From contig NZ_MDTU01000003.1 of assembly GCF_001720395.1 (NCBI RefSeq), positions 1 to 64,000 on the forward strand: a DNA stretch of 64,000 nt. Direction: 5' to 3'. This DNA comes from Piscirickettsia litoralis. GTDB lineage: Bacteria > Pseudomonadota > Gammaproteobacteria > Piscirickettsiales > Piscirickettsiaceae. How positions within the stretch are numbered: the stretch's first letter is position 1; every line of letters starts with the position of its first letter. The notes below the pieces were generated by a model. It did no database searches and was not told where the DNA came from. It saw only the letters and a program-made list of their open reading frames with translations. Made by a program: the position numbers and the translations under genes. This document shows, piece after piece, positions 27,945 through 54,904 of this stretch.

Positions 27945-28908
27945 ATGCAAGAACTCGTAGTAAACAACGCCTCCACGGAGTTGCTTGATTCCTTAAAAGA
28001 GCTGCAATCCTTCGTTGAAAATAACAGCGCTGCGCCTAACACAGAAATTGCCTATGCAAAACCTTGGAAGGATTTTGAGACGTATTGCTATAAGTTAGGG
28101 CTGACACCGCTACCTGCCGATGAAGGCGCAGTCGCGCTTTTTTTACATCACCTGTATAAAGCAAAAAAAGCGCAAGCGTACTACGATTCAAAAATCACTG
28201 GCCGCAATCAATGCTAAGCACGTCAAGATGGGCTTTAAGTCCTTCAGTGACTCCATGCAGGTTAAGGCTGTGTTGTTTTCCATCAAACGTCATGATAATT
28301 ACCAGCCTAAGCAGGCTAAACCTTTATTAAAAGCAGAGTTTGAGCAATTGTTGTCAGTCATTGATACACAGTCACTGGCCGGAATACGCGATTTAGCCTT
28401 ATTGTCATGGCTATGGTTTGGAGCTTTTAGAAAGTCCGAGATTGTTGCTGCAAAGGTGGAAGATTTAGAAAGTGTGGCAGGGAAGGGGATGTTGCTTAAT
28501 TTAGGGCGCAATAAAGTGAATCAAACAGGTGAGAAACGCTTGCAGGTGCCAATGATACTGCAACCGGTCTATCCATATTGCCCGAGTACATTGATGCAGT
28601 TGTGGTTGGAGCGCAGCAAAATTAAAAAAGGCCCAGTGTTTAGAGCAATCAAAAAAGGGGAGCAATTACAAAGCAAGGCTCTATCCAGCAGTGCTGTTGA
28701 CCATATCCTCAACAAATACCTCGATCTTGCAAACTTGACAGGCTATACGCCACACAGCTTTAGAGCAGGATTCTTGACGGAAGCTAAGCTTGCAGGTGCG
28801 CCTGATGAAAAGCTCAGGCAAGTCAGTCAACATAGTTCTGCGGCGTTGGAGCGGTATATCCGACCTGTGGAGTTACTTGATCATCCTGCGGCAGCATACA
28901 TTATTTAA
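27945..28908 (+). pseudogene. Tyrosine recombinase split by a +1 frameshift
   Basis: The first frame (27945-28217) encodes the SAM-like core-binding domain (TEIAYAKPWKDFETYCYKLGL). The second (open 28120-28908) gives the catalytic domain with all active residues: R in GAFRKSEI, K in NKVNQTGEKRL, HSFR, H in VSQHSSAALE and Tyr in ERYI. Skipping one base near 28179 yields KKAQATTIQKSLAAINAKH, which joins the domains smoothly. A run of seven A lies just before. The gene is probably inactivated by one inserted base, unless frameshifting or separate starts rescue it. It follows kfrA at 11 nt. Confidence 0.75.
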
Positions 28909-31869: not shown

Positions 31870-31901
31870 AAATTAAAGTGAGCCGAAGCCCACCTTAATT
31901 T
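31870..31901 (-). terminator. Terminator at the end of the minus-strand DNA-metabolism operon
   Basis: On the minus strand AAATTAAGGTGGGC pairs with GCTCACTTTAATTT (about 31870-31901) around a CTTCGG-like tetraloop. It is placed 10 bp after the stop of the 43-aa gene, and is the best terminator for the operon reading from 40.6 kb. Confidence 0.6.
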
Positions 31902-31911
31902 GTGAAAAAGA

Positions 31912-32066: not shown

Positions 32067-32321
32067 TTAATGATCATCCTTTTTGTTGGTTTTCGTCAAG
32101 AAAATACCAACGACCCACATGATTAGCCCTAAAAATACTAATTTCTCAGCATCTATCGTGCTAATGCCGCCTTGGTGTAAGAACATACCAACAATACCAC
32201 CACCAATGGCTGCTAAACCTGCCTTACGCAAGTCTTCAGCAAGGGCTTCAGTACGTTTGATGTCTGACTGGGCCAGCTTTTTAATCCACTTTATCACACT
32301 TCTTTTGATTTTCTTTGCCAT
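32067..32321 (-). CDS. Small membrane protein, 84 aa
   Basis: Basic amphipathic N-terminus (KKIKRSVIKWIKKL), a coiled stretch, then two membrane segments (~36-55, ~61-78) and a charged tail. Not recognised. GGAGG precedes the ATG but can be masked by the RNA element just upstream (32322-32376). With the following 43-aa gene it closes the operon and may form a holin-like or anchoring pair; that is only a guess. Confidence 0.6.
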   Translation of the reverse strand: MAKKIKRSVIKWIKKLAQSDIKRTEALAEDLRKAGLAAIGGGIVGMFLHQGGISTIDAEKLVFLGLIMWVVGIFLTKTNKKDDH

Positions 32322-32376
32322 GAATCCTCCGTTTCAGATGCGGAGGAACCCCAAGTGGAGTTTCCCCCACTTGGGT
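32322..32376 (-). promoter_or_regulatory. RBS-mimic leader element 1 (before the 84-aa membrane protein)
   Basis: Coding strand: stem CCCAAGTGG/CCACTTGGG (plus 32367-32375 and 32350-32358) with loop GGGAAACT. The next strand GTTCCTCCG (32341-32349) can pair with the loop region (7 of 8 positions) or with CGGAGGA, the SD at about 32325-32331. The two pairings exclude each other. Confidence 0.7.
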
Positions 32377-32388
32377 TGGTTGTTTAAA

Positions 32389-33744
32389 TTAAGCGGCGAT
32401 GGTTTGGTTGAGTTTGCCTAAAATGCATTGCACCTCTTGAGCGAACGGGCCTCGAATCACCAACTTCACTTTCTTTTGTAATTTTGCTGTCACCAGCATG
32501 CGTTGATAAAACATCACATCACGATACCGCTCACGCATAAGCATGAGGTAATCGTCAGGATTGCCTTGCCAACCGTGAGGCGGACAAAAAGCACACTCGC
32601 CACTTTTGCCAGCCTCTGTGTCAATAACGGACATATTGATCTGTGCCATGCGTTGTTTCTCCTGAAAGTAGTGCTGTTGCAATGATTTTTTTGTGGGAAA
32701 GCCTGCATGTTGGTGCTGGCACCACACATCATTCCAATCCACACTTTTTCGATCACCTAACAGACACTGATCAGGCAGCATAACCAGCACAGTGATGCCT
32801 TGTTGCTGTAGCCGCTCTTTTAAAATCAAAGCAGCTTCTTCACCTGCACAAGAGCGATCTTGATCAGCCCAAATAATGACCGTGCGAATACTTTTAGGCG
32901 GCTGTACGCTTTTTAAAAGTGTTGCAGTCATCGCTGACCATGTAGGAATACCGGTGGCAAGGTAGACAGACAACGCTGTCTCTATACCTTCAGCGATTCC
33001 TAAGATGCTCCCCTGCGGCCCCACTAAACGAATTGCGTTACCGGCAACCGCAAGGTTGTCAGGAATGCTCATCATTTTTTTCACTTTCTCAACAGGCGCT
33101 TTGTGACCCTCGTTCGTTAAATACGTTCGATGCAAAGTCACGATCTGACCGGCTGCATTTTGAACTGAACACACCATCGCAGGAAATTCACCCACACGAT
33201 GCCCTTCTTCATCGAAGTAAGGCAAAGCCGGATGAAAACGCACACAGTCACTTACATGAGAAGTAAAACAGCGGCGTTGTTGCAGATAACGCTTCACCGC
33301 ATCGTCACCGAGCGGTTGAGCTTGATTCCACACCTGAGTAATCCAAAATGCGGCTTGTTCAGATTGCTTTTTCTGCTGAGTCAGTTGCTGTTGAGCATGT
33401 TGTAGCCAAGGTTGCTGCTTGTGTGAGTCCACTTGATTATGCAAGCTCGTCACCCCTAAAAAGGCGGCGACCTGCTCAAGCGTCTCACGAAAACTCCAAC
33501 CATTGAGCCATTTTAATAATTCAAAGCCATCGGATTTTGCGCCACAGCTATTGCAAATGCCCCCACCAGTTTCATTCACATCTTTAAATAAACGAAACCC
33601 GTCTTGGCCGTGATGCACGGGGCAGGACACATGTCGTCCAGGCTTTTTTAATGCGCTTTCTAATTGCGGTGCCAGTCCAGACAAGACACATAACCATTGG
33701 TTCTGAGCCTTTTCTCGTACTTGCTTTGCATTAATGTAGTTCAT
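32389..33744 (-). CDS. CHC2/Toprim primase-like protein
   Basis: 451 residues from the ATG at 33744, chosen because CAGGAGG lies 6 nt upstream; the longer open frame runs through the RNA leader and is unlikely. A zinc-binding N-terminus (CPVHHGQDGFRLF...CNSCGAKSDG) is followed by a Toprim domain: GIAEGIETALSVYLA, and VIIWADQDRSCAGEEAA. This is a DnaG-like primase without helicase domain, as in conjugative and ICE primases. It would prime the transferred strand or plasmid replication. Confidence 0.85.
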   Translation of the reverse strand: MNYINAKQVREKAQNQWLCVLSGLAPQLESALKKPGRHVSCPVHHGQDGFRLFKDVNETGGGICNSCGAKSDGFELLKWLNGWSFRETLEQVAAFLGVTSLHNQVDSHKQQPWLQHAQQQLTQQKKQSEQAAFWITQVWNQAQPLGDDAVKRYLQQRRCFTSHVSDCVRFHPALPYFDEEGHRVGEFPAMVCSVQNAAGQIVTLHRTYLTNEGHKAPVEKVKKMMSIPDNLAVAGNAIRLVGPQGSILGIAEGIETALSVYLATGIPTWSAMTATLLKSVQPPKSIRTVIIWADQDRSCAGEEAALILKERLQQQGITVLVMLPDQCLLGDRKSVDWNDVWCQHQHAGFPTKKSLQQHYFQEKQRMAQINMSVIDTEAGKSGECAFCPPHGWQGNPDDYLMLMRERYRDVMFYQRMLVTAKLQKKVKLVIRGPFAQEVQCILGKLNQTIAA

Positions 33745-33773
33745 AATTGCCTCCTGAAATAACCTGACATCGA

Positions 33774-33824
33774 GGTTTCTCAAAGCCCCTGTATCAGAGG
33801 ATTTAAGAAACCCCGACACAGAGG
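33774..33824 (-). promoter_or_regulatory. RBS-mimic-type leader element 2 (proximal, before primase gene)
   Basis: Coding strand: 10-bp stem CCTCTGTGTC with GATACAGGGG (two G-U pairs), 19-nt loop beginning GGGGTTTCTTAAA. The following TTTGAGAAACC pairs with the loop over 11 positions (one G-U). Same H-type pseudoknot plan as the other elements. The downstream strand can alternatively form a local AACCT/AGGTT hairpin just before the SD. Confidence 0.65.
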
Positions 33825-33826
33825 AT

Positions 33827-33862
33827 GGAGGCACCCCATAGGGAGTTGCCTCCCCTTGGGGT
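33827..33862 (-). promoter_or_regulatory. RBS-mimic leader element 3 (distal, before primase gene)
   Basis: Coding strand: stem ACCCCA with TGGGGT (plus 33857-33862 and 33833-33838), loop containing GGAGGCA. The next strand TGCCTCC (33827-33833) is a perfect 7-bp match both to that loop and to GGAGGCA at the primase SD (33748-33754). This is the clearest case of loop and RBS sharing one sequence. Confidence 0.75.
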
Positions 33863-33868
33863 GAATGG

Positions 33869-34162
33869 TTATGCTGCATATTGCTGCTGTTCGAGGATGA
33901 GATCACGAAGTTCATCGGCACAAAAGCCGAGCATTTCCGCGCAAACACAAAAACTAAATGGATGCTTCTCTGTTGAGAGTACCCACGCTAAAGCTTCTTT
34001 AACAGACTGCCTAGCAGTGCGATGATCAGCGAGTGCTGATAACGCGCCATAGAGCATTCCTTCTCGAAGCTTAAACACGTCTTCGTCTGTCCACTCAATT
34101 GCCTCTTCCAACGGCAATACCAGTTGATATTCTTCAAAGTAACGTTGTGCCAAACTCATCAT
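33869..34162 (-). CDS. Hypothetical protein, ~97 aa
   Basis: The start is taken at 34162 or 34159 (two adjacent ATG), preceded by GGAGGG and only 7 nt after the VWA gene's stop; the longer frame reaching 34228 lies inside that gene. Helical, acidic, two Cys in SFCVCAEMLGFC. Not recognised. Translationally coupled to the VWA gene, and it has no RNA element of its own. Confidence 0.6.
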   Translation of the reverse strand: MMSLAQRYFEEYQLVLPLEEAIEWTDEDVFKLREGMLYGALSALADHRTARQSVKEALAWVLSTEKHPFSFCVCAEMLGFCADELRDLILEQQQYAA

Positions 34163-34169
34163 GCCCTCC

Positions 34170-35801
34170 CTATGCCACCAAAACCGCATGAGCAAGAGCG
34201 AATAATGATTGCTTGAGTTCACTGACATCGTTGATCACGACTGATGAAGTAAAATAATGTTTGACCTCATCATATTTGATTCCGATGCCAATCAACTCAA
34301 TGCCACTGTCTCGACATCGCTGAATCATCGCTTTCGCATGATCTGGTCGTGTCGGTTGGCCATCGGTGAGCACAAAAATAATTTTGCGCTCTGTTCGTTG
34401 GCCGACAATAGCAAGCACTGCATTCAGCAGGGCTTGAGCTAAAGGAGTATTCCCTTTAAAGCCACACTTAAAGCGTCCTGCTTGTTGAGCCACTCGTTCA
34501 CTTTGATTTAATACGGTGTAATGCTTTGAGCCAGTAAAACAACTGGCACTCACATGTACCCCTTTAATGGTTTCTAAACCCAGTGCTAAACACAGAGCTG
34601 CTTGTAGCGCCACATCACCCATCGCTTGATTTTGAGGAGTGCGTACCGCCATTGATGCGGAGCAATCGATTAAAAAGTGCACCGCCGTATTCGGCATCAC
34701 TTTATCCACCGACTTGACGAACACTTTGTTGCACCCAGTTGCAACTCGATGAAGCTGTGTTCGTGCTAAACGTCTGCCTTGGTCACTGTAACGAACTGAT
34801 ACACGTTGGTTGGCCTGGACTAATCCCATGAGTTGAGCACGGAGCATCATTGATGCCTGTGCAGCGTCATGAAGCAAGTCACATCCTGACCCACTATCGT
34901 GCATAGTGTGTGTTGGCAAAGGTTGAATTTCATTCTCGACTTCATCGTCACGAAAGGACTGTAGAATGTGAGACTGAAGATCACCCATCACCTCATCATC
35001 GGTCGCATTCAATAAAGAATCGAGTACCTGTTGCGTGCTCGGGATAGAAGAAGATGGCGCTTTCTCTGGTGAGTTTTCAGAGTTAAAACTATCCAAAGAA
35101 TCTGAGTCTAGCTCCTTGCTATCATCACCTGCTGAAGGTTGCTCCTGACTCTCATCATTTGCATTTTCAGAAGACTCGTCGGATTGCTCATCGCTCTGAG
35201 ATTCTGATTGAAGTAAATCAATCACGGCTTGCGCCAAAGCCACCGCCTCTTTTGTAGAGGTTAGCGACTTAGATTGTTGCAGCAATAAATCAACTTGGTT
35301 GAGCATGGGCAACTGTGAAATCAAACACTGACGGTAAGCGATTAAATGTTCATTCACCGCTTGAGTCAGTCCATGACAACGTACCCAAAACAAGCAATAG
35401 CCTGTGAGTAATTGTGCAACATGTGCTTTGGCATCGGGCATTTCAAACAAGCCATTCGCCTTACAGTACTCGACTGTAGCGTTCAGCGTAGTGATCGTGC
35501 CCGGATACAATCGCATCATTTGCTTTTCAATGCGCCCGTCCTCAAAAATGTTGCTCAGCGATTGGTGCAGTGGACTGCTAAATCCACAGTAATCTGCAAA
35601 TTGAGTCAATCGCACATGCGCCGCTTCATGGGCTAAATAGCCCCATAAAGCATCTAAGTTTGGATAGTCTTCAGGCAGCGCAGGCAATTGAATGGTTTGA
35701 CCATCCGTATATGCCTCCTGTCCGCCAATTTTAACTTTCACGCCGAACTTTTCAGCATAGGCATTCGCAACAATAGGAAGTGCTTTAAAAATTGTTTTCA
35801 T
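34170..35801 (-). CDS. CobT-like von Willebrand A (VWA) protein
   Basis: 543 residues from ATG 35801 (GTGGAGAAACACC upstream). The N-terminal part contains HEAAHVRLTQF, like the metal-binding helix of VWA/CobT-type proteins. The middle is a long acidic Ser/Asp/Glu linker. The C-terminal VWA domain has the MIDAS motif FLIDCSASM and FVLTDGQPT. Together with the MoxR/CobS-like ATPase at 39163 it forms a MoxR-VWA chaperone pair, which SXT/IncA/C elements carry as cobS/cobT. Despite the name a role in cobalamin synthesis is unlikely here. Confidence 0.85.
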   Translation of the reverse strand: MKTIFKALPIVANAYAEKFGVKVKIGGQEAYTDGQTIQLPALPEDYPNLDALWGYLAHEAAHVRLTQFADYCGFSSPLHQSLSNIFEDGRIEKQMMRLYPGTITTLNATVEYCKANGLFEMPDAKAHVAQLLTGYCLFWVRCHGLTQAVNEHLIAYRQCLISQLPMLNQVDLLLQQSKSLTSTKEAVALAQAVIDLLQSESQSDEQSDESSENANDESQEQPSAGDDSKELDSDSLDSFNSENSPEKAPSSSIPSTQQVLDSLLNATDDEVMGDLQSHILQSFRDDEVENEIQPLPTHTMHDSGSGCDLLHDAAQASMMLRAQLMGLVQANQRVSVRYSDQGRRLARTQLHRVATGCNKVFVKSVDKVMPNTAVHFLIDCSASMAVRTPQNQAMGDVALQAALCLALGLETIKGVHVSASCFTGSKHYTVLNQSERVAQQAGRFKCGFKGNTPLAQALLNAVLAIVGQRTERKIIFVLTDGQPTRPDHAKAMIQRCRDSGIELIGIGIKYDEVKHYFTSSVVINDVSELKQSLFALAHAVLVA

Positions 35802-35823
35802 GGTGTTTCTCCACGTAAAAAAG

Positions 35824-35860
35824 AGAGACACCTCCCCAGTGGAAGGTATCTCCCACTGGG
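35824..35860 (-). promoter_or_regulatory. RBS-mimic leader element 4 (before VWA gene)
   Basis: Coding strand: stem CCCAGTGG/CCACTGGG (plus 35853-35860 and 35835-35842), loop GAGATACCTT. The next strand AGGTGTCTC (35824-35832) pairs with GAGATACCT over 9 bp (one G-U), or its GGTGT pairs with ACACC directly before the ATG. Confidence 0.75.
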
Positions 35861-35873
35861 GTTTAGATGTAAT

Positions 35874-36821
35874 TTAGAAGTAACTAGACTCAGCTTGAAA
35901 ATTTTCGCTGGTGGATTGAGCTGCAAAAAATGCATCCATATCGTCCAGTTGAGTTTTCGGTTGAGTCGGTAAGGGGGTAGAGAATGCCTGAGCAGACACT
36001 TCACCACGCGCAAATTGCTCGATGCGGTGACGGTCGCTCAGCAGCAACAACAGACTCATCAATTTATGAAAAGTGTTGCCCATGATCTTGTGGCCATCCA
36101 AACATTCCACTTCACGTAGAACATCACGCATGAGTGAGACAATCGGTAAGATTGCGCCATGCAAAAAGGATAACCCATCAATCTTGTCGCACAGAACAGC
36201 AAGCTTATTGCTCATCCGAGTGTGACATTCATCTTTACCCACTAAATTTTGATAGAGGTCATCGGCTTCTCGAATCACTTCACTGATTAAATCATCACCC
36301 AACTGATCGACACCTTGCTCTAATCGTTTAGAGCTGGCATCACTGCTGGGTTGGATTTTAAAAAGCTGATAACCAGAAAATAACCGTTTAGCGACTTGTT
36401 CTTTCGGCATAATGCTCGATTGAATCGCCGCCGCATAGTTCTGATTTTCATGTATCCAGGCTTCCAGTGAAGCGTCATAGTCCGACAAGAATAACTGCTT
36501 ATTGTCCTCAAACTCATCGCAAATCACGTCGAGTTCTTGGGCAAGCTGATCTTCTTTGGCGGTTGGAACAGCATAACCATTCAAAAAGTTCAGACCATAT
36601 TTTTCACACGTTCTAATGGCACGGCGTTTTAGACTGTTGAAGTGTTTTAGCAAGTCAGGATTACAAATACGTTTGCGTCCTAAAAGTGCTAACCGCTCAG
36701 GAGGAATGTCGCCGCCTTCACCCAGCTTTAAGTCGCTGATTGAAAGCTTAGTCATGCCACTCCAAATGGTAAAGTCCAACTGAAATACGCTCAGTGCTTC
36801 TAAAATTTGTGCTTGTTTCAT
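35874..36821 (-). CDS. DUF3150-family protein
   Basis: 315 residues, mostly helical, opening ALSVFQLDFTIWSGMTKLSISDLKLG and continuing KRICNPDLLKHFNSLKRRAIRTCEKYGLNFLNGYAVP. This is the DUF3150 pattern found between cobS and cobT in SXT/IncA/C elements. A probable third member or substrate adaptor of the MoxR-VWA machine. Function is not established. GAGG precedes the ATG inside an RNA element. Confidence 0.75.
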   Translation of the reverse strand: MKQAQILEALSVFQLDFTIWSGMTKLSISDLKLGEGGDIPPERLALLGRKRICNPDLLKHFNSLKRRAIRTCEKYGLNFLNGYAVPTAKEDQLAQELDVICDEFEDNKQLFLSDYDASLEAWIHENQNYAAAIQSSIMPKEQVAKRLFSGYQLFKIQPSSDASSKRLEQGVDQLGDDLISEVIREADDLYQNLVGKDECHTRMSNKLAVLCDKIDGLSFLHGAILPIVSLMRDVLREVECLDGHKIMGNTFHKLMSLLLLLSDRHRIEQFARGEVSAQAFSTPLPTQPKTQLDDMDAFFAAQSTSENFQAESSYF

Positions 36822-36843
36822 GGTGTTATCCTCAAAAAATAAA

Positions 36844-36875
36844 CACCATGCGCCCAGGGGCGCAATGGTGCGCCC
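36844..36875 (-). promoter_or_regulatory. RBS-mimic leader element 5 (before DUF3150 gene)
   Basis: Coding strand: stem GGGCGC/GCGCCC (plus 36870-36875 and 36858-36863), loop containing CACCAT. The strand ATGGTG (36844-36849) pairs with that loop, or, extended as ATGGTGTT, with AACACCAT covering the start codon itself. A third GGGCGC copy (coding strand, plus 36850-36855) also competes for the stem. Confidence 0.75.
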
Positions 36876-36887
36876 GAAGAGGCTTAA

Positions 36888-37862
36888 TTAAAAATAGGCA
36901 GAAAAAGGTTCATTAAAGTGAGGGCGACTCTGAACCAGAGCGGCCTTATTTACTTTAGGTAGAAGCTTTTCTGACCCTAATTTACGGTACTGGTTTAACT
37001 GATCATCACTCAATTGTGGCAATAAAGTTTCGACGATTTTTTTATAATCAATCGCTCCTTTTGCCATTGAGCGCGTCAGTGTTAGACCACCGAAGTCGGC
37101 AATTTTGTTGTTCCCCATCCCTTTTTCAAGTTCAGTAAGACACCCTTTTTGTGCCAACTCGTAGGCTTTGACCGTTTTTTTCAATGCAGCGAGTTTTTCT
37201 GCGTAAAAGCAATACTCAGACACATACTCAGACTGCACGCCGTGTAATAAAGCAATATCACGCTCAGGGTCACGTTCTGGTGCAACATCGGTTTGCACCG
37301 CCTGCCAAAACGCCGAGGCTTTTTTGACCAATTGCGAAATGAGTTCTTCATCACGCCGAATCAAAAAGACCTTAATCTGACCCTCATGGTAAAAACACAA
37401 ATAACCTTGCTGCGCTTCTGCCACGTAGATTTGATACTGCACTTGATAAAAATACAGTTGGTAAGCCTTGCTGTGCTCTTTTTGCTCAATCACATCCTGC
37501 CACGTTTTAGGTGAGGGGACTTTCAATTCAACAGGAAACCCCTGTGAACTTAAGCCATCAAACGAAGCACGAATCACTGAATGTTCAGAGCTTTCAGCAC
37601 AGAGAGGAATGAGTAAATCATCCAACAGTGCTTCCATCTTTGCGCGTGCCGCAGGTTCCAGTGCATGTCCTCTTTTGACAAAGAAGTTATCACTCAAATC
37701 AGGCGGCTCCACACGTTGCGTTTTTTCAGCCCACAAGCGCCAAGGCGTTTTGTAAGGCGAAGTATTCATAAACACCGCAGCATCCGAAGCACTCACGCCG
37801 AGCTTGCGCCAAGCGTGCCATTGATCAGAGCCTTGAATCAGGTCAACGACTTTCATCGGCAT
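36888..37862 (-). CDS. YqaJ-family recombination exonuclease
   Basis: 324 residues. RGHALEPAAR, IRASFDG, VELKVPSPKTW and YYQVQYQIYVA-like segments supply the Glu, Asp, Glu-x-Lys and Gln of the lambda-exonuclease/YqaJ nuclease core. It digests one strand at double-strand ends and hands the single strand to the Bet annealase encoded just upstream. Start 37862 lies 20 nt inside bet, with GGAGG before it, so the two are made together; an ATG at 37856 is an alternative. Confidence 0.88.
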   Translation of the reverse strand: MPMKVVDLIQGSDQWHAWRKLGVSASDAAVFMNTSPYKTPWRLWAEKTQRVEPPDLSDNFFVKRGHALEPAARAKMEALLDDLLIPLCAESSEHSVIRASFDGLSSQGFPVELKVPSPKTWQDVIEQKEHSKAYQLYFYQVQYQIYVAEAQQGYLCFYHEGQIKVFLIRRDEELISQLVKKASAFWQAVQTDVAPERDPERDIALLHGVQSEYVSEYCFYAEKLAALKKTVKAYELAQKGCLTELEKGMGNNKIADFGGLTLTRSMAKGAIDYKKIVETLLPQLSDDQLNQYRKLGSEKLLPKVNKAALVQSRPHFNEPFSAYF

Positions 37863-38823
37863 TTCCTCCGAAATAGAAGTTAGCTTGATTTATTGTCTCT
37901 TGAGCTGGTGCCTCAAACTCTGCTTCCTCAACAGGTGTTTCAGGCGTTGGGGTAGGCTGAAATTCAGCTTGCGCTTCACTCAGTCGTTGCAATGCATAGT
38001 CTTTGTCAGCCCCTTGCAGTTTTGACTCGACATAGCTTTTTGCAGTATCCCAACATCCAGAGGGTTTTGCTCGCTCAATTAACTGATTTAAAGTTACATC
38101 AAGTGAGCTACGTGCTTCCTGTTCCAATCCCGGTGTCGCTGTAGACAGAGGCACCACATTGGTCGGCTGTTTGGTTGGGGTAATATCGACTTCTTGGCGA
38201 TTCATCTCACAAATGCGCTCAGCTTCATCGAGATCATAAATCCCAGCAAAACCAATCGCAACTCGTGCCGCTTGAATCAGTGCCTTATGGCCCAACATCC
38301 GTTTTGGGTGTGATTGCCAAGGCCCATCAATCGTGTAATTACCGTAATCCCCTTTTTTCTCAATCGCAGGACGATAGACTTCATCAAAGTACTCACGAAC
38401 ACAGACAGGGTGTGAGCGATCTTTACGATAAATCACACACTCTATCCATTCGTGACATGACTTATGCTTATCATCGAGGTTCACTTTATTATCGGCATAG
38501 CGAAATTCCATCCCATCGTAAAATTGGTTTTCGTTGATGATACGTGACCATCCATCCACACTCACGACAGGAACAATTCCACCTTTTTTATCAGGAAACG
38601 CCCAAATCTCTTTTAAAAAGGGGTTGAGGTTGAACTGATCTGCGACCAACAACAAAGCCACCATTTGCTCAGTTGAAATGTCGGGGGCAGCCCAATGGCC
38701 GCTCTTATCTTTTCTGGCCGGTTGCTTAAATGCAGTGGCTTTTAAAGTATTTAAAAGCTTATCCGCATCAAGGTTAAACCGCTCTGCAAAACGAATGACC
38801 AGTGAGTTATTTGCATTTATCAT
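37843..38823 (-). CDS. bet: Bet/RecT-type single-strand annealing recombinase
   Basis: 326 residues from ATG 38823 (TTAGGAGATACACC upstream). LLVADQFNLNPFLKEIWAFPDKKGGIVPVVSVDGWSRIIN and the later QSHPKRMLGHKALIQAARVAIGF are signatures of lambda Bet-type annealases. SXT, R391 and IncA/C plasmids carry bet/exo pairs that promote element recombination. The C-terminal ~90 residues are low-complexity linker. Longer frame to 38964 includes the RNA leader and is rejected. Confidence 0.93.
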   Translation of the reverse strand: MINANNSLVIRFAERFNLDADKLLNTLKATAFKQPARKDKSGHWAAPDISTEQMVALLLVADQFNLNPFLKEIWAFPDKKGGIVPVVSVDGWSRIINENQFYDGMEFRYADNKVNLDDKHKSCHEWIECVIYRKDRSHPVCVREYFDEVYRPAIEKKGDYGNYTIDGPWQSHPKRMLGHKALIQAARVAIGFAGIYDLDEAERICEMNRQEVDITPTKQPTNVVPLSTATPGLEQEARSSLDVTLNQLIERAKPSGCWDTAKSYVESKLQGADKDYALQRLSEAQAEFQPTPTPETPVEEAEFEAPAQETINQANFYFGGNADESR

Positions 38824-38889
38824 GGTGTATCTCCTAAATAAGAAGGGATACACCTCACCCAACCGGGGAAAGCATATCCCCATTGGGTT
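38824..38889 (-). promoter_or_regulatory. RBS-mimic leader element 6 (before bet)
   Basis: Coding strand: two-part stem ACCCAA/TTGGGT and GGGGA/TCCCC, loop region GGGATATGCTT. The strand AGGTGTATCCC (plus 38845-38855) pairs with it over 11 positions including G-U pairs. Alternatively its GGTGTATC pairs perfectly with GATACACC, which joins SD and ATG. Confidence 0.75.
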
Positions 38890-38896
38890 TGATCTG

Positions 38897-39166
38897 TTAC
38901 AGCAAATTAAAACAAGCGTTGCCTTTAGCATTAAACTCTTCACCAGGAACGTACCCGGCATCAAGTTTTTTGCAAATCGACAAACGCTCTAATGCTTGAA
39001 CAGCACTTGGTATATCAGAGGTTTTAAAAGCTTCAAGATAAGTCATCTTGTGTCGAGCGCCTTTACGCTGACTCACTTCTAACAACACGGTTGAGTTTTG
39101 TAATTGACGATAGCCTATGGCCCAATATTCGTTTTCTTTCCAGAAGAGCTGGCACTGAATACTCAT
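38897..39166 (-). CDS. Hypothetical protein, 89 aa
   Basis: Not recognised. Small alpha/beta protein, QLFWKENEYWAIGYRQL and KLDAGYVPGEEFNAKGNACFNLL. Its start overlaps the CobS-like stop as ATGA, so it is translated by coupling and lacks its own RNA element. Confidence 0.6.
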   Translation of the reverse strand: MSIQCQLFWKENEYWAIGYRQLQNSTVLLEVSQRKGARHKMTYLEAFKTSDIPSAVQALERLSICKKLDAGYVPGEEFNAKGNACFNLL

Positions 39167-40140
39167 GCGGCTTGCTCCTCTTCTCGCCAGGATGACCCGA
39201 AAACATCTTTACTAATGCGTAAAATAGCTTCGCGTTCTTCATAGCTTGCTCGGAAAGTTAACGCTTGATCTAAGGCATAACCAATCGCATTAGGTGCACC
39301 CTTAAACGTTTGAGTAAGCCGCGCCCATCGAACCAAAGTTCGTGTAGACATGGTGATACTCAATGTTCCAGCGTGACCTTGTTCACCTAGGAATAACCGG
39401 CGTATCTCGTTAGCGACTTTAATCATCGACGAACGAATGGTATCCGGTAGACTCGGTATTGCTTTATCTAAAATAGACGACTCTTCTTGCTCAGAAGCGT
39501 ATCCCACACGCATAAACCGATAGCGATCTAATGCAGCTAAGTTCTGCATTTGAATCCCTTGGTAAAGCCCACTGGAATCACCTGAACCTGTCGAGTTCCC
39601 CGTGACAATCACACGAAACATTTCATGAGGCTGAATCACCTCACCTTCGTTTTGTGGAATCACCAACGGTCGTCCTTCTAAGACATCGTTGAGTCCGGCC
39701 AATTCCGCCGGGTCAGCTAAATCCACTTCGTTGATTAAAAGAATATGTCCTTCTTTCATTGCACGTGCCAATGGCCCATGCACGAATGTGGTTTTAGTGC
39801 CGCCCAACCGGTCAGCAACCAACTGAATAGAACCCACCAGATCGGAAAGCTCCATGCGCCCATGGGCGCATAATTGCTGGGCAGGCCAATTTAATCGAGC
39901 TGCGACTTCAGTCACGCCCGAGGTTTTACCTGAACCTGTCGGCCCGGAGATATAAAGCGCATCAGAGCACGGTTGTGCTAAAAACGCTAAAATGTCTCGC
40001 AAGAACTCACGACGAAACAGGTAATTGTCATCTTTTTTGGGAATGCAGGGATGCGTCTCATCGAGATAACCCAAGACACGCAAGTCAACATCAAACCCAA
40101 AACGTTCTTTCACCGTAAAAACGGTCATTGAATGATTCAT
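39163..40140 (-). CDS. CobS/MoxR-like AAA+ ATPase
   Basis: 325 residues. Walker A is ISGPTGSGKTSG (~residue 65), Walker B HILLINEVDLADPAELAGLN, sensor 1 RVIVTGNSTGSGD, and the C-terminal AAA lid follows. MoxR-type ATPases remodel complexes together with VWA proteins; the partner is encoded at 34170. In SXT/IncA/C elements the gene is called cobS. The start at 40140 has GGAGTACACC before it inside RNA element 7. Confidence 0.88.
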   Translation of the reverse strand: MNHSMTVFTVKERFGFDVDLRVLGYLDETHPCIPKKDDNYLFRREFLRDILAFLAQPCSDALYISGPTGSGKTSGVTEVAARLNWPAQQLCAHGRMELSDLVGSIQLVADRLGGTKTTFVHGPLARAMKEGHILLINEVDLADPAELAGLNDVLEGRPLVIPQNEGEVIQPHEMFRVIVTGNSTGSGDSSGLYQGIQMQNLAALDRYRFMRVGYASEQEESSILDKAIPSLPDTIRSSMIKVANEIRRLFLGEQGHAGTLSITMSTRTLVRWARLTQTFKGAPNAIGYALDQALTFRASYEEREAILRISKDVFGSSWREEEQAA

Positions 40141-40208
40141 GGTGTACTCCTGTAGATCGCTGAGTACACACGCTCCCCACGATTGGGTAAAAAGTGCATA
40201 CCCAATCG
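40141..40208 (-). promoter_or_regulatory. RBS-mimic leader element 7 (before CobS-like gene)
   Basis: Coding strand: perfect 10-bp stem CGATTGGGTA/TACCCAATCG (plus 40199-40208 and 40180-40189). GTATGCAC at its loop edge pairs with GTGTGTAC downstream. The same strand, as GTGTACTC (40162-40169), pairs perfectly with GAGTACAC at the SD/start. Confidence 0.75.
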
Positions 40209-40225
40209 AGGTGTTAATTTAGAAA

Positions 40226-40576
40226 TTAAAGTGCGCCAATCACTTGTGGGTGACAGTTGACACTGATTTCTTGATTTGAAACCGCAGTGATTGCAGAACA
40301 ATCATTGAGGATGTTAATAGGCACAACCACACGTTTGCTTAAACAGTGATGCGGTTGGTCTTGATTGCGCAAATAAGCAGGCTCGTCATATTGCGCCCAG
40401 TTTTGAGTTAACACTGGACTCATAGCAAGTCGTCTTACTCGTTGAGGTTGAGCGTGTGACGCAGGAAAGAGCGCCCGTATTATTGAAGTCAACAGAGGTA
40501 CAATAAGTTGCTTTAGGCCGTTTAAAGCGAGAGCAAGTAAACCCAGTGTGACAATAATAACGATGAAATGGCTCAT
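40226..40576 (-). CDS. Small membrane protein, 116 aa
   Basis: One N-terminal membrane segment (FIVIIVTLGLLALALNGL) and a second weaker hydrophobic stretch, then a ~70-residue hydrophilic domain. Not recognised. First gene of the minus-strand operon; TAGGAG precedes its ATG within RNA element 8. Confidence 0.6.
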   Translation of the reverse strand: MSHFIVIIVTLGLLALALNGLKQLIVPLLTSIIRALFPASHAQPQRVRRLAMSPVLTQNWAQYDEPAYLRNQDQPHHCLSKRVVVPINILNDCSAITAVSNQEISVNCHPQVIGAL

Positions 40577-40650
40577 GTGTTTCTCCTAAAAATAATCAGG
40601 AGCAAACACAATTTTCCCAGTGGGAGAATACGTTGCTCCCAGAGGGTGTA
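40577..40650 (-). promoter_or_regulatory. RBS-mimic leader element 8 (before 116-aa membrane protein)
   Basis: Coding strand: stem CTGGGAG with CTCCCA (imperfect outer pairs), loop containing GGAGCAA. The strand GTGTTTGCTCC pairs with that loop through TTGCTCC, or with AGGAGAAACAC, the SD and start region, over 11 bp with one bulge. Confidence 0.7.
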
Positions 40651-41028: not shown

Positions 41029-41634
41029 ATGGCCGATAAGCGAAAAGCGCTCCAATCAAAACCTGTACTTAAACGCCCCATTAAGCTCAATACCTTACAA
41101 GCACAACGCATTTATCATGACCGTTTTCGTTTTGTCTCAAATTCATTGTTTAGCCTAAGCGTCATATTGCGTGTTATTGGCCAAGAAGATGATATTGACA
41201 CATTAGAAGATATGATCTTGGGCTACTTTAATAAAGCAGAAACAGAATTAAAAGACTCGATTAATCGTTATAAAGAATTAATTAAATCTCAAGGTATTCA
41301 AGAAATACCCACTTATAGCGAACCGTTGGAGGCCACCATCGAGGTGAACTCACCACTGGTCTTTCGTTTGATTAATACCTTTCAAACAATGGACGTAACC
41401 ATCCAGCTCATAGACGCTTTGTGGTTTTCTGGTGCTTTACGAGACAAGCAGCACTGCGCGGCACATGGCGAATGTATTTCTCATATGAATAAATTTTTAG
41501 GTCGTGTCACCAATATCGAAAAACGCGCCCGCAATGCCGCACGACAAAAAGGCAAATCAGAAGAAGTAAGCGAAGAAGCTCCGAAAGTTGAAAGTCAACC
41601 TCAAGAGCAAGAATCTAATCAAAAAGTTGCATAA
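41029..41634 (+). CDS. DUF1845-like protein of integrative/conjugative elements
   Basis: 201 residues. LQAQRIYHDRFRFV, a helical middle with YFNKAETELKDSINRYKEL, then YSEPLEATIEVNSPLVFRLINTFQTMD and LIDALWFSGAL recall the DUF1845 (PFL_4669) family of conjugative elements. The C-terminal 30 residues are Glu/Gln-rich and disordered. CTAGGAGAGG precedes the ATG. It leads a plus-strand run with the TraC-like ATPase at 41646. Confidence 0.5.
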   Translation: MADKRKALQSKPVLKRPIKLNTLQAQRIYHDRFRFVSNSLFSLSVILRVIGQEDDIDTLEDMILGYFNKAETELKDSINRYKELIKSQGIQEIPTYSEPLEATIEVNSPLVFRLINTFQTMDVTIQLIDALWFSGALRDKQHCAAHGECISHMNKFLGRVTNIEKRARNAARQKGKSEEVSEEAPKVESQPQEQESNQKVA

Positions 41635-49923: not shown

Positions 49924-52662
49924 TTATTGTGTAGGTTCGCCAATATCAGGAATAATATTTTTAGTCATTTTTCGCCTCAGCTTATCTATATCAAGACCAT
50001 CTATTCTTTGCTTCGTGCGCTCAATGGCATTTTTTCTGTCACCATTGATGTTAAGAGTGCTTCCTTTGCCTGTAAGTTTATCTATATTAAGATCACTTGC
50101 ATCTTTAGGATAGTGACCTGTGACTTTTAATATGGCCTGCCACTCAGAAAGGTCTACTTTTGACCAGTCAATTTCATTAAGTCGATTTAACGGAATACCA
50201 TCACAGGAAGGGTGCTCGGCAGCTCCAAAACTCATTCCAAGTTGGGGCCGTACTTGCTCTTGAATAATTCGAGAGAGCGGCGAGTTGTAGCAACAATAAG
50301 CTTTAATCGTTTTGATGCAGCCTAAACCTGGTACTTTTTTGCCACAATAAGAGCCAATGTAGTGACAATTTTTCAGTTCCCTTTGTGCGTTCATTTGATA
50401 TTCATCTTTCGTGCAAGCACCAATGATAAACTGCTTGTAGATCAGCATAGTGATGACATAAATCTGATAAATGGTCATGGCAGTTGCTAACCATGTTGCA
50501 GCACCAGTCGCCATGCTTTTTGCTGCTGTACCAGAAGCCTCTGATGCACCTGCTTGTGCTCCTGCTTCGGTAGCCTGCTTTTTAAACATGTCATAAAAGA
50601 TTTGTTTAAGTTTATCTTCAAACTCCTTCATGATTTCTTTTACAAAATCTTCAATAGGTTGAGTTAGTTTTTCATAAGCGCCAGAGATATTGTCAACGAA
50701 GTTAGAAAAAGGCTTTACCGCTTCCGTCCAGCTATTCACTATAGGGTTTCTTAGTGCTGAGTAAGCACTTTTAATTATGTTTGTGTCTCCAAGGCTCATA
50801 ATCCCAGTATCAAGCTTTGGAGCGGCCATAATCAATGTAATATAGTCTGATAGTGAAATTCCTTCTGGTGCTTCGCAACAATCCTGTGCAGCCTTGCCTG
50901 AATGACAGCTTCCAGCCTTCCCAGAGAACACTTTACAAGTCACATCTTGCGTTGCATCGGGCTTCACGCATTTCATGTCTTGAGTCATAAATTCTGCAAC
51001 ATGTAAGAGCGCAGCAGCTTTCGCAAAATCTTGCGACTTGCCTGCGGTGTTATCGACACATTCACCGCCTAAGCATTCCACAGCCCCCGGACATTTATAA
51101 ACGAATTTTTTCTTCTTATTTTCAACTTCAACATCTTTGCCACAGTCGTAGGTGTCTGTGAACATATAACACAGCCCTGACTTCCCTTTGGAGCCATCGA
51201 CACACTTAGAATTAATAAAGCCGCATTTATCCTTGTATTGATCACAGGAGTCGTAGGCATATATTGATTTGAGCGCGTCTACGCTATTTTGTTTGTAGTC
51301 CGCATCCACTTGTACTTTGGTACATAAGGGCGGAATGCCTTTGAGTGGTGGTGTTTTAAAATAAGGGTTACATACTTTCAGTCCATTCATGACGGTGCAG
51401 CCATCTTTATCCGCAGGGTTTTGAATACATTTCACTGTGCCTTTCGCAAAGCCATCATAAATCCCTTGAGCCGCATCGACACAGCTCTCAGGAGTCCACT
51501 CATCGCGCTGTACGACCTTTTTCGGGTCAAAGTGAATGCGGATACGTGCATAGCCCTCACCGCCGCCTGTGACGGAGACACGGACTTTAAAGTTAACAAT
51601 CTCACCAGGGTCAACGTTTTTTTTGAAAGCGTCAGTCACATCCACATTCAAGCCTCGCTCCCAACTGGTGCTTAACTCACATGCGCCGGGAGTTTCAGGA
51701 GGAAAGTTATCATTAGGGCCATTCCATACTTTATTTTCCATGCCATCTTTGCCGACCCACACTTGCATATAGTCATCCCACTTGGCGTATTCGAGTGTGG
51801 CACTGGTAATAGCATCGGGATTAGTGACGCGGACTTTGGTTTCTTCTTGGTAGATCGAGCAATTACCACCCCAATAGTTATCACCAACACGACCAATCCA
51901 AAGCAACATACAACCTTTACCACAAGGACTGTAGTTGAAGGGGCCATTGTAGTGCTCAATAATACTGGCACTGTAGGTATGATTAACAACACAACTACCA
52001 GAGCGGTCATTAATTTGAGTACACTGCTTATAATCTGGCAAGTGTTTTTTCTCTTTGATCTTGATGATTTCCGTGTCTTTTTTGCAATCGGTAAATCCTG
52101 CGTCAATGAGGTCGATATTATCGAAAATGTTTTTTTGTTGCTGAAACATCGGGTCTTTGCTTAAGTCAGGACGTGACTTATCACTGAAGGTTTTTTCAGC
52201 CACATCATACACCTGCCCCATCATTGACGGATGACCACTTTTAGAGTCGCCATAAAGCGAAGTTTTGGCTTGTTTGCCGAGTTCATCCATCGCACTGCTG
52301 GAATTGGCGGCATTTTGCATGGCATTCACATCGGGGGCTTTACCATCGGGAAAATAATAATCCATGTCTTCTTTTGACACATGGCTGGTGCCGGGGAAGA
52401 GGTCTTTGATGTTAATTTTCATTTGGTTCTTCTGGTCGCCCCAAACAATCTCGCCATTATTATTGGTGGACTTTTGCTGTTGAGCGCCGAGTTGTTTGCC
52501 CCACTGATGACCAAGGTCTTGTGCCTCTTTTGCAGTTTTTTCAAAATCAGAGTTGTCCCCCTTGAGTGTAAAATTAGCAAAGGCACTGTTGATGGAAAAC
52601 ACGCTCATTGAAACAACCAGAGTGGAGGCAATGATCTTTTTTATTCGCTTTTCAAAAAACAT
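49924..52662 (-). CDS. traN: TraN, mating-pair stabilisation protein
   Basis: 912 residues, signal peptide (IIASTLVVSMSVFSINSAFA) and a cysteine-rich body with more than 30 Cys in patterns such as CGKGCML, CKVFSGKAGSC and CYNSPLSRIIQEQVRPQLG near the C-terminus. The last is strongly conserved in TraN. It is the outer-membrane protein that stabilises mating pairs. Last gene of the transfer operon, 9 nt after traU. Confidence 0.92.
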   Translation of the reverse strand: MFFEKRIKKIIASTLVVSMSVFSINSAFANFTLKGDNSDFEKTAKEAQDLGHQWGKQLGAQQQKSTNNNGEIVWGDQKNQMKINIKDLFPGTSHVSKEDMDYYFPDGKAPDVNAMQNAANSSSAMDELGKQAKTSLYGDSKSGHPSMMGQVYDVAEKTFSDKSRPDLSKDPMFQQQKNIFDNIDLIDAGFTDCKKDTEIIKIKEKKHLPDYKQCTQINDRSGSCVVNHTYSASIIEHYNGPFNYSPCGKGCMLLWIGRVGDNYWGGNCSIYQEETKVRVTNPDAITSATLEYAKWDDYMQVWVGKDGMENKVWNGPNDNFPPETPGACELSTSWERGLNVDVTDAFKKNVDPGEIVNFKVRVSVTGGGEGYARIRIHFDPKKVVQRDEWTPESCVDAAQGIYDGFAKGTVKCIQNPADKDGCTVMNGLKVCNPYFKTPPLKGIPPLCTKVQVDADYKQNSVDALKSIYAYDSCDQYKDKCGFINSKCVDGSKGKSGLCYMFTDTYDCGKDVEVENKKKKFVYKCPGAVECLGGECVDNTAGKSQDFAKAAALLHVAEFMTQDMKCVKPDATQDVTCKVFSGKAGSCHSGKAAQDCCEAPEGISLSDYITLIMAAPKLDTGIMSLGDTNIIKSAYSALRNPIVNSWTEAVKPFSNFVDNISGAYEKLTQPIEDFVKEIMKEFEDKLKQIFYDMFKKQATEAGAQAGASEASGTAAKSMATGAATWLATAMTIYQIYVITMLIYKQFIIGACTKDEYQMNAQRELKNCHYIGSYCGKKVPGLGCIKTIKAYCCYNSPLSRIIQEQVRPQLGMSFGAAEHPSCDGIPLNRLNEIDWSKVDLSEWQAILKVTGHYPKDASDLNIDKLTGKGSTLNINGDRKNAIERTKQRIDGLDIDKLRRKMTKNIIPDIGEPTQ

Positions 52663-52671
52663 GAGAGTCTC

Positions 52672-53676
52672 CTAGTTGTTGCAACAATCTACCCAGCGCC
52701 ATACCAGATACACGGGGTCTTCACCGATTCCAGGCAAGGTACGTCCAACCCCCCAAACCAATGTCGATTGGCCGATGACGTGATCTGAATCGGTTTCAGC
52801 AACGGGATAAAACATGGTGAATTTATATTGCGCTTTGGGGAGGACAGGATTAATAAAGCCACGACACAGCGCCCTATCGCCCATTGTTTGCCACGCTAAA
52901 CCTCGACGATGTAATGCAGCAAGAACACGCACAGAAAGTAAGCTGGTGTCTTCTAACACCCCTTGATTACCTGCTTGGTTGCCAGAGAACGGGTAAATGT
53001 TGCCCCAACTTCCTGCACACCAGAACATTGATGAAATGGGATGACCTGTGCTGGCGGCAATCGCATCGGCAGAACACGCAGCAGTCGCAATTGGATTGGA
53101 AACGGCGGCGGCTTCTGGATTAGCAAAGAAAGCAAGTTCATCATTATTCCAGGTAGGGTCAAGCTCTGACATATACATGATGTCCAAGTCCATATAACCA
53201 TCGGCATTACAGTTACGCTTGATAAATAAATCCAAGATGGATAGCAAGGGAAAGGCATAATAGTGAAAGTGATAAAAGGAACTGTCTCCCCCATCTTTAT
53301 CACCCGTGCCGTTGGTGCCCTGAAATAAGCGATCAAAAGGAAAGGTAATGCCATTAAGCACAGAGGAGCAGCCAGGAACGTGCTCAAACTCGACAAGACG
53401 CGCAGGCTCCCACATTGAGGTAGTAATCCCCGGACGGGGCAAACCGGCATCATCGCTACAAATGCATAAGGGGTTGTCGGCGGCTCCCGATGGAACACGC
53501 CCACCTTTGCCACTGATGGGGACTCCCATGACTTTGATTGGAAAGAGGCACGACCAGCAGACATCGGTGAGGAGTTTGCCACTGATCACATCGGCATTGG
53601 GGCACCCCACCGTAGAGGCATGTGTAGTTATTGAAAATAGACAACTGACCGCAAGAAAACAAAGGGCTTTAAACAT
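52672..53676 (-). CDS. traU: TraU, F-type conjugal transfer protein
   Basis: 334 residues, signal peptide (ALCFLAVSCLFSITTHA). GKLLTDVCWSCLFPIKVMGVPI, CICSDDAGLPRPGITTSMWEPARLVE and DIMYMSELDPTWNNDELAFF are hallmark TraU segments; length equals the family's. It is a periplasmic protein for DNA transfer and pilus assembly. Overlaps the preceding traW by 8 nt. Confidence 0.95.
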   Translation of the reverse strand: MFKALCFLAVSCLFSITTHASTVGCPNADVISGKLLTDVCWSCLFPIKVMGVPISGKGGRVPSGAADNPLCICSDDAGLPRPGITTSMWEPARLVEFEHVPGCSSVLNGITFPFDRLFQGTNGTGDKDGGDSSFYHFHYYAFPLLSILDLFIKRNCNADGYMDLDIMYMSELDPTWNNDELAFFANPEAAAVSNPIATAACSADAIAASTGHPISSMFWCAGSWGNIYPFSGNQAGNQGVLEDTSLLSVRVLAALHRRGLAWQTMGDRALCRGFINPVLPKAQYKFTMFYPVAETDSDHVIGQSTLVWGVGRTLPGIGEDPVYLVWRWVDCCNN

Positions 53677-54904
53677 TTGGGCCTCCTTTAATCGCTAGCT
53701 CTTGGACGATAAAGTGATCACCTTCTGCCGTAACGATGGAGGGTGTGCGCTCAAGCTGAAAGCGGTTTTTAATGTCTGGGCTAAGCAAGAAGATGGGGGC
53801 TTCAAATAGATTTGTGACCTGCTTGTAGTCTTTCCAGCCTTGTGTCCGGTTGAGTTGTGTTGTGATTAAAATGACCTTCTTAATTGCTGGGTCGTACCTG
53901 AGTCGTTGCACGGCTTGCTGAACACAAGCTAATTCTTTCTGGTCAGTTGCATTAAAAACGACGAGGGCTTCATCAAAAGGCCGCATGTGCAGTGGATTAA
54001 TTGAACTGCCTGCTGGCACGATAATTTGACCATTCGGTGCTTGAATATTGCGTGTGACTGTAATTGTTGGGTCGATAATGCGTGTTTTGTCTTTATGAGC
54101 TTCAGGTAAAGCGGTGAAAATCTGTTTTTGCCAAAAGCGTTTAATCGCGGCTTCTTTTTTCTGTTTCCAGTCAATTTTCATGACACGTTCTTTCATGACA
54201 TCGATCAGGTCAGGTTCAGAAATCGCCACTGTTTCTCCTGCTTGGCCAAAGTCTTTTGCATGTCTGTCTTTGACTTGGTTAATCAGCCAGTGTGGATTAG
54301 ATAGACCTTCAACTCTGGCCAGCGGTTTATAAACAGGTCGTGTAGCTTCTGGGTTAATAACCTGATCACTCAAGTAAATCATCGTTGGAGCTACAGTGAC
54401 GTGATAGGTTTTGAATAAGGTGGGGTCTAGCATGATATTGGGAACAGGTTTTAACTGAGCACCGAGGGATTGAATTTTAATCAGTGCCTTCATGATCGGC
54501 ATGCCTTTAGGAATCCCTCGAAAAACCACAACGGCTTGAGGTAAGGTGTGAACACGCTTAAGCAATGCCTTTAGCCCACTTTCCCCCATTGCGAGTGAGG
54601 CAAACACCAAAATTTTATGGAGCTTGTAATAGGAGGCTTGCTGTCGGTCTTGACGTGCTTGTTTAAGCGTTGGGTTGGTTTCTGATAACTGATGATAAAG
54701 TTGCATGGCCTCTTGTTTTTCTTCAGCCATTTTTGAGGGATGTAGAATATCTGCAAAGTCTTTCTCCTTGGCTTGTGCCATGATTTTTTGGCTTTGTTGA
54801 ACGATTTTCATGTCCTGATCGGACAGAGAGTTGGCATAGAGAGTGTGAAGGCTCAAAGCCAACACGCTAAAACAACGGATACACACGACCGATAATTTGT
54901 TCAT
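53669..54904 (-). CDS. traW: TrbC-TraW fusion protein
   Basis: 411 residues with signal peptide. Residues ~85-180 (ILVFASLAMGESGLKALLKRV, VVVFRGIPKG, NIMLDPTLFKTYHVTVAPTMIYL) are the F-type TrbC domain. From ~205 on (GETVAISEPDLIDVMKERV, PAGSSINPLHM, FDEALVVFNATDQKEL) it is TraW. Such fusions are typical of SXT/IncA/C-type systems. Periplasmic, pilus assembly. Overlaps the peptidase gene by 38 nt; a start further in would remove the signal peptide, so the overlap is probably real. Confidence 0.88.
   Translation of the reverse strand: MNKLSVVCIRCFSVLALSLHTLYANSLSDQDMKIVQQSQKIMAQAKEKDFADILHPSKMAEEKQEAMQLYHQLSETNPTLKQARQDRQQASYYKLHKILVFASLAMGESGLKALLKRVHTLPQAVVVFRGIPKGMPIMKALIKIQSLGAQLKPVPNIMLDPTLFKTYHVTVAPTMIYLSDQVINPEATRPVYKPLARVEGLSNPHWLINQVKDRHAKDFGQAGETVAISEPDLIDVMKERVMKIDWKQKKEAAIKRFWQKQIFTALPEAHKDKTRIIDPTITVTRNIQAPNGQIIVPAGSSINPLHMRPFDEALVVFNATDQKELACVQQAVQRLRYDPAIKKVILITTQLNRTQGWKDYKQVTNLFEAPIFLLSPDIKNRFQLERTPSIVTAEGDHFIVQELAIKGGPNV

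Follow-up and report, generated by a model that had tools for sequence, protein, structure and literature searches.

Candidate translational switches repeated along an operon of Piscirickettsia litoralis and in IncC and SXT/R391-type elements

The subject of this study is a family of RNA leaders that precede genes of a minus-strand operon in Piscirickettsia litoralis. The operon lies in a 64,000-nt stretch of contig NZ_MDTU01000003.1 (positions 1 to 64,000), the whole of which is referred to below as the window. Each leader has a hairpin containing a strand that mimics the ribosome-binding site (RBS) of the gene, followed by a short anti strand that is complementary both to the mimic and to the RBS. 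In this element and in IncC and SXT/R391-type elements, the leaders seem to form a class of translational switch that is widespread and as yet without a name. All evidence is comparative and thermodynamic.

In translational attenuators of the ermC/cat type, the Shine-Dalgarno (SD) sequence is freed or hidden by 2:3 and 3:4 helices that exclude each other. The leaders resemble them in having mutually exclusive helices that would decide SD access, but here the other partner of the mimic lies between the mimic and the anti strand, and there are many copies per operon. No leader open reading frame (ORF) was noticed in the elements, no search having been aimed at stalling leader peptides, and upstream stop codons lie at variable distances. 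In the maturation-gene leader of MS2 a transient fold allows translation until the start region is hidden by a stable one (PMC6733600). This logic is like that of the second and third states proposed below, except that MS2 has a single leader in an RNA phage, whereas the present module belongs to DNA elements and is repeated, each copy being refitted to the RBS of its own gene. The hok and aapA3 toxin mRNAs form sequential co-transcriptional hairpins with competition between SD and anti-SD sequences (PMC6733600). Ordered metastable folds with this competition are likewise predicted for the leaders. However, the transient hairpins of hok and aapA3 block translation or steer the RNA to an inert fold, while the predicted transient fold of the leaders leaves the SD free, and neither a toxin nor an antisense RNA was seen here. 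The activator pseudoknot of ColIb-P9/IncI repZ is an alternative structure in a plasmid leader that decides access to the RBS (PMC9977716), much as proposed here. It differs in occurring as one leader per plasmid under the control of antisense Inc RNA; no antisense RNA was found for the present leaders, and a nested alternative structure is favoured for them.

The radC RNA (RF01754) and the STAXI motif are, like the leaders, orphan RNAs of mobile elements, but they have separate sequences and structures. The leader lies outside the radC model and occurs without radC in IncC, SXT-like and methylotroph plasmids. The 149-nt conserved radC structure was absent from the window and from the IncC array. 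Searches with Rfam 15 at curated thresholds gave no match for the leaders in the window or in loci L009 and L012, and permissive Rfam searches near leaders gave chance-level matches only, in agreement with a preliminary description of the window that knew of no named motif with this design. No prior description of the leaders in IncC, SXT/R391 or integrative and conjugative elements (ICEs) was found in the open-access literature that was searched. What is new is a standard module that is refitted by sequence to each gene, in up to about 30 copies per element.

The order of the genes in the operon, from ORFs and Pfam, is a 116-amino-acid hypothetical protein, a CobS-like AAA ATPase, a small gene, Bet/RecT, a YqaJ exonuclease, a DUF3150 protein, a CobT-like VWA protein, a small gene, a Toprim primase and an 84-amino-acid protein. 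On the coding strand, every gene that does not overlap its upstream neighbour was found to be preceded by a hairpin, then by a short anti strand, and then by an RBS to which that strand is complementary. There are seven such leaders of about 65-75 nt, the primase leader being longer through an insertion. Each can be divided into six strands: a (AACCC), b (GGGG plus the loop, which is the RBS mimic), c (CCCC), d (GGG(G)), e (the anti strand) and f (the RBS and start codon). The operon and its leaders are listed below, with scores from the covariance model R1 and shuffle tests, both of which are described further on.

32067..40576, minus strand: operon served by the leaders, from ORFs and Pfam.
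40574..40649, minus strand: leader 1, before the 116-amino-acid gene (40226-40576); hairpin TGGGAGCAAC..TCTCCCA, anti strand GTGTTTGCTCC, RBS GGAGAAACACA; R1 25.7 bits; nascent refolding predicted.
40138..40212, minus strand: leader 2, before the CobS-like AAA ATPase gene (39163-40140); hairpin CGATTGGGTATGCAC.., anti strand GTGTGTACTC, RBS GAGTACACC; R1 17.1 bits; mimic:anti 12 bp, anti:RBS 8 bp.
38821..38890, minus strand: leader 3, before the Bet/RecT gene (37843-38823); mimic GGGGATATGCTTT, anti strand GAGGTGTATCCC, RBS GATACACC; R1 59.5 bits, E value 4.5e-14 (a training sequence of the model); mimic:anti 13 bp; three-state path predicted.
36819..36886, minus strand: leader 4, before the DUF3150 gene (35874-36821); mimic GCACCAT, anti strand CATGGTGTT, RBS AACACCATG; R1 17.0 bits; shuffle test 0/200; three-state path predicted.
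35799..35864, minus strand: leader 5, before the CobT-like VWA gene (34170-35801); mimic GGGAGATACCT, anti strand AGGTGTCTCTC, RBS GGAGAAACACC; R1 44.9 bits (training sequence); shuffle test 0/200.
33742..33863, minus strand: leader 6, before the primase gene (32389-33744); mimic GGAGGCA, anti strand TGCCTCC, RBS GGAGGCA; mimic:anti and anti:RBS 7 bp each; a hairpin of about 60 nt is inserted between the anti strand and the SD.
32319..32378, minus strand: leader 7, before the 84-amino-acid gene (32067-32321); mimic GTGGGGGAA, anti strand TTCCTCCGC, RBS CGGAGGA; R1 25.9 bits (training sequence); shuffle test 0/200.

Every hairpin, anti strand and RBS complementarity that the preliminary description names is present on the coding (minus) strand, and the three genes overlapping their upstream neighbours that it had called leaderless (the exonuclease gene, 38897-39166 and 33869-34159) do lack the element. 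It had proposed that shuffled controls giving as many triple complementarities would refute its reading. Shuffled, swapped and unrelated-gene controls all fell short. A score combining the hairpin, loop:anti and anti:RBS pairings exceeded 200/200 dinucleotide shuffles for the leaders at 35801, 36821 and 32321; at 33744 the test automatically selected the inserted hairpin in place of the leader hairpin. Real sequence beat all 60 shuffles at 5/10 operon starts, compared with 1/42 starts of E. coli K-12 and 0/14 other genes of the window. When the anti strands were swapped among the seven leaders, only 1 of the 5040 assignments, the true one, attained the actual strength of mimic:anti, and the same held for the two pairings summed. 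For anti:RBS alone 3/5040 assignments were as good as the true one.

The operons found by protein search to be closest to that of the window are those of IncC plasmids, an Aeromonas plasmid, a Proteus mirabilis R997 record whose gene order is SXT/R391-like, and plasmids of Vibrio, Marinobacter, Microbulbifer, Allochromatium, methylotrophs and Azospirillum. A near-identity BLAST of the operon against plasmids returned zero matches. The intergenic leaders of the related operons follow a common plan with different variable sequences, so that both pairings are kept while the sequences diverge, as had been suggested for the copies in the window. This also goes against the other refuting outcome named in the preliminary description, a lack of covariation support for the pairings across homologous plasmids. 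The consensus of 34 leaders is nAACCCnAnnGGGGnnnnnTnnCCCnnnTGGGGGnGTGGTnnnCCCnnnnnTTTnGGAGAnnCACCATG. The covariance model R1 was given the first hairpin as its sole structure. Its E values are rough, and several of the listed matches are training sequences. Counting matches with E values up to 1, R1 found 29 in a 170-kb IncC plasmid, 32 in pAhD4-1, 25 in Azospirillum p1, 23 in a Methylobacter plasmid, 9 in the R997 record and 4-6 each in the Marinobacter, V. tubiashii and Microbulbifer plasmids. There were none in pCTEL-2, which carries a more distant relative of the operon, and matches were at chance level at most in 50 kb of E. coli K-12 and in other stretches of the genome from which the window comes. 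Copies per element number about 4-32, with a common core and different variable strands.

The 27-kb IncC array has an apparent leader at 24/35 genes. A leader ends at the annotated start in 23/34 genes with a measurable upstream gap, and at the first gene as well. All genes of this array that overlap the previous gene, or start 13 nt or less from it, are leaderless. That leaders end at start codons supports a translational role. R1 matches occurred in 23/398 Pseudomonadota genomes, many of them clustered, ICE-like clusters among them. DUF3150 was absent from 10 of 18 leader-bearing genomes that were re-examined, so the family is not bound to the recombination module.

Selection on the two pairings was examined in 113 non-redundant leaders. 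Strands b, e and f were located by consensus position, not by complementarity, and were then compared within and between leaders. The mean mimic:anti energy was -16.9 kcal/mol, versus -10.2 kcal/mol when swapped (z=-25.5). The anti:RBS pairing gave z=-17.7, and pairing of the anti strand with the region from -8 to the ATG gave z=-15.6, while mimic:RBS, a control pair not expected to form, gave z=-2.1. In 64 leaders from genomes outside model building, the values were z=-15.8 for mimic:anti, z=-17.2 for anti:RBS and -1.5 for the control. The picture was unchanged in an earlier set of leaders anchored on hairpins alone. The strands of each leader are therefore individually co-adapted. In the MAFFT alignment, pair counts showed no covariation in the G/C core. 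This core is conserved in sequence, which makes its covariation uninformative on pairing, and swap tests were used instead.

Mismatches in the mimic:anti helices, which were chosen by Watson-Crick pairs only, comprised 45 G.U and 1 A.C, compared with 17:10 in swapped helices and about 2:1 predicted from composition. The excess of G.U over A.C places selection on mimic:anti in the coding-strand transcript, and not in the other strand or in DNA. In the anti:RBS helices C.A is common, because the CCCC of the anti strand faces GGAG; the anti strand is thus a better match to the mimic than to the SD. It is scarcely credible that the leaders act as folded single-stranded DNA, for instance in conjugative transfer, since, for all the conjugative context and the suggestion that the STAXI motif is single-stranded DNA (PMC2864571), the mismatches indicate selection on coding-strand RNA, the anti strand pairs at the SD and start codon, and the leader ends at the start codon.

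The preliminary description read the competing structure as an H-type pseudoknot between the loop and the anti strand. The loop:anti pairing is indeed selected (loop-only z=-14.8 in the same 113 leaders), but the GGGG of the 5' arm is also part of the mimic, and the pairing including this arm is far stronger (z=-25.5 above), from which it follows that the upper stem must open. A rough estimate of the pseudoknot energy was less favourable than that of the nested state. The competing structure is better read as a nested hairpin (b:e, with an inner c:d), predicted to require the first hairpin to open, than as an H-type pseudoknot. A pseudoknot that keeps the lower stem is possible.

Folds of the growing transcript were predicted with nested structures. 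First the local hairpin appears, then a long nested b:e hairpin, often with a c:d (CCCC:GGG) inner stem, and then, once the RBS has been made, the first hairpin again together with anti:RBS. In the Bet leader, nascent folding gave a 13-bp b:e helix at 48-60 nt, then an end state of -35 kcal/mol. Nascent RNA ending before the RBS had 8.9 expected mimic:anti pairs, versus 1.6 with a swapped anti strand. The three states were traversed in order in 74% of 160 leaders, compared with 17-18% with swapped anti strands and 5% with shuffled sequences. State 2 is the step that is specific to the anti strand (93% versus 26% on swapping in the same leaders). At full length, the hairpin plus anti:RBS was more stable than the mimic:anti state in 129/158 leaders, with a median of 5.6 kcal/mol. 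Ground-state prediction thus yields ordered, mutually exclusive folds that affect the SD, as is characteristic of kinetic switches of the MS2/hok type.

With moderate confidence, we propose that these are cis-acting translational leaders of about 70 nt, one per separately initiated gene, that fold along an ordered three-step path during transcription. In state 1 the local hairpin a:d plus b:c would form. In state 2 the emerging anti strand e would capture the mimic (b:e), and c:d could form an inner hairpin. This would leave no free anti-SD, and the SD about to be made would be accessible. In state 3, after synthesis of the RBS (f), a:d plus b:c would re-form and e would pair with f, which would hide the SD and, in many cases, the start codon too. 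OFF would be the end state of lowest energy, and state 2 would be a metastable ON window, its length set by the refolding barrier, by ribosome loading and possibly by a factor that recognises the AACCC/GGG core. State 2 would then be translated, with refolding slow enough to matter, and recombination and replication proteins would be made from fresh transcripts only. The leader may be used as a plain timer, be held open by ribosome loading or be set by a factor reading AACCC/GGG. In SXT/R391 this operon, which begins with s089 and encodes a system for RecA-independent recombination, has its transcription activated by SetCD (PMC4344509). Any action of the leaders would follow this step.

Several observations weigh against the three-step path. 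The folding energies are for nested structures only, at 37 C, and describe ground states. A quarter of the leaders lack the full path, and nested folds do not show the intermediate in leader 7 of the window. State 3 becomes the ground state once the transcript has grown to within a median of about 4 nt of the start codon, so it is favoured before a 30S subunit could bind and the ON window needs slow refolding. Double changes between orthologs kept pairing in 9/11 cases for anti:RBS and 11/18 for mimic:anti, which is positive but a small sample that includes some pairs that are not strictly syntenic. Finally, the unpaired AA before CCC is conserved (A at 77/87%, regardless of the distance from the upstream stop) and CCC is near-invariant (98-100%, partly since the model selects for CCC). 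These suggest a trans-acting partner, which a timer does not need.

Such a partner is central to a gated switch, in which one trans-acting factor, encoded by the element or the host, binds the core AACCC.GGGG.CCCC.GGG and switches every leader of an element at once, with the two pairings as its ON and OFF outputs. We consider this possible, though unlikely. Conservation of AA and CCC beyond the needs of pairing (partly model selection) is consistent with it, as are the many copies per element with a common core and differing variable strands. The identity of the core can, however, be explained by the double duty of the G and C runs across three states. No protein family was common to all leader clusters within about 20 kb. 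A search of element-encoded proteins found a ProQ/FinO homologue on 0/13 plasmid records and CsrA on only 3/13, so that control by an element-encoded regulator of either kind is not general.

A role as transcription attenuator, with the state-2 hairpin and a U tract acting as an intrinsic terminator before each gene and the first hairpin as antiterminator, appears improbable for the family. The base of state 2 is indeed rich in GC, this state is the most stable one at the point where RNA polymerase has just passed it, and T is over-represented downstream of the anti strand (33/113 tails have at least 5 T in 7, and none has 5 A). Yet U tracts occur in only 2/20 IncC and 0/10 Azospirillum leaders, a terminator before each of about 30 genes would be extremely polar, and the strong anti:RBS complementarity and the leader ends at start codons would be left unexplained. 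A GC-rich hairpin directly followed by a U tract was found in 29% of leaders, concentrated in methylotroph plasmids, and for this subset a termination role is possible.

Ribosome coupling, one of the triggers put forward in the preliminary description, fares worse and is very improbable as a general mechanism. Here a ribosome terminating at or near the hairpin would refold the leader, passing translation from gene to gene. The stop codon is often within 25 nt of the hairpin and sometimes overlaps it (TAACCC), and the leaderless genes include all that overlap or nearly overlap the previous gene. However, the distance from stop to hairpin ranges from 0 to more than 150 nt with the AACCC core equally conserved throughout, leaders are also present before the gene that opens the window operon and before genes that follow long gaps, and the mimic would be covered by a ribosome standing at the stop, which would favour the OFF state.

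What stands from the preliminary description is therefore a family of translational switches with RBS-mimicking strands, one anti strand and two mutually exclusive pairings, which the Rfam, swap and mismatch analyses support. More tentatively, the three-step leader may be a generic, reusable RNA timer in large conjugative elements across Proteobacteria. Each element would have dozens of custom leaders that allow translation only from fresh transcripts, or only while state 2 is held by a common signal, so that establishment and recombination functions would come in a post-transcriptional pulse across the whole element.

Among the major carriers of multidrug resistance are IncC plasmids and SXT/R391 ICEs, whose control at the level of transcription by AcaCD and SetCD is well studied. 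Despite this, an apparent undescribed RNA switch is present on most genes of the IncC array (24/35, as given above). With such a switch, the biology of conjugative elements would gain a post-transcriptional layer. The family also offers more than 200 natural re-designs of a single three-state RNA, on which rules of co-transcriptional folding can be tested, and the covariance model is a marker for gene arrays of these elements, whose genes are mostly of unknown function.

The preliminary description counted eight elements in the operon. The eighth, at 33774, was rejected as a member of the family. It lacks the family core, is single-copy in the genome and sits between the anti strand and the SD of the primase leader:

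33760..33820, minus strand: two-layer hairpin of about 60 nt inserted in leader 6, not a member of the leader family, from sequence.

The hairpin AATTAAGGTGGGCTTCGGCTCACTTTAATT at window 31871-31905, at the 3' end of the operon, is a likely terminator. The divergent gene upstream of the operon (window 41029-41634) and reading frames at 49924-54904 match genes of IncC, Aeromonas and R997-like loci, the end of IncC traN among them, and the window is on this basis assigned to an IncC/SXT-like conjugative element. Recombinase-like reading frames at window 27945-28217 and 28120-28908 overlap in two frames, as in a frameshifted or recoded integrase gene.

Other RNA elements lie near leaders in related loci. 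In ICE-like loci, radC RNAs (RF01754) occur directly upstream of leaders, about 20 nt away in several cases (L065 3003-3158, 3805-3961, 4929-5087 and 11441-11578; L062 1712-1854). Rfam identified only radC in L065 and L062, ending upstream of the leader. A second repeated element, GCGATAGCTGGTCGCCAAAAACAAACAGC, is found upstream of some leaders and reads as an H-type pseudoknot (GCGA:TCGC, GCTG:CAGC, A-rich loop). It had no convincing Rfam match nearby. Its positions are 2587, 3631, 8466, 12298, 16715, 20497 and 26751 in L047 (IncC NZ_OQ821021 70000-112000), 7810, 8870, 13142 and 18032 in L011, and 5400 in L060. The first stem varies with compensation (GCGA/TCGC, GAGA/TCTC, GAAGG/CCTTC). In the IncC array, L047 23519-23553, just after an 817-amino-acid gene, gave a sub-threshold match to a ctRNA_p42d-type terminator hairpin.

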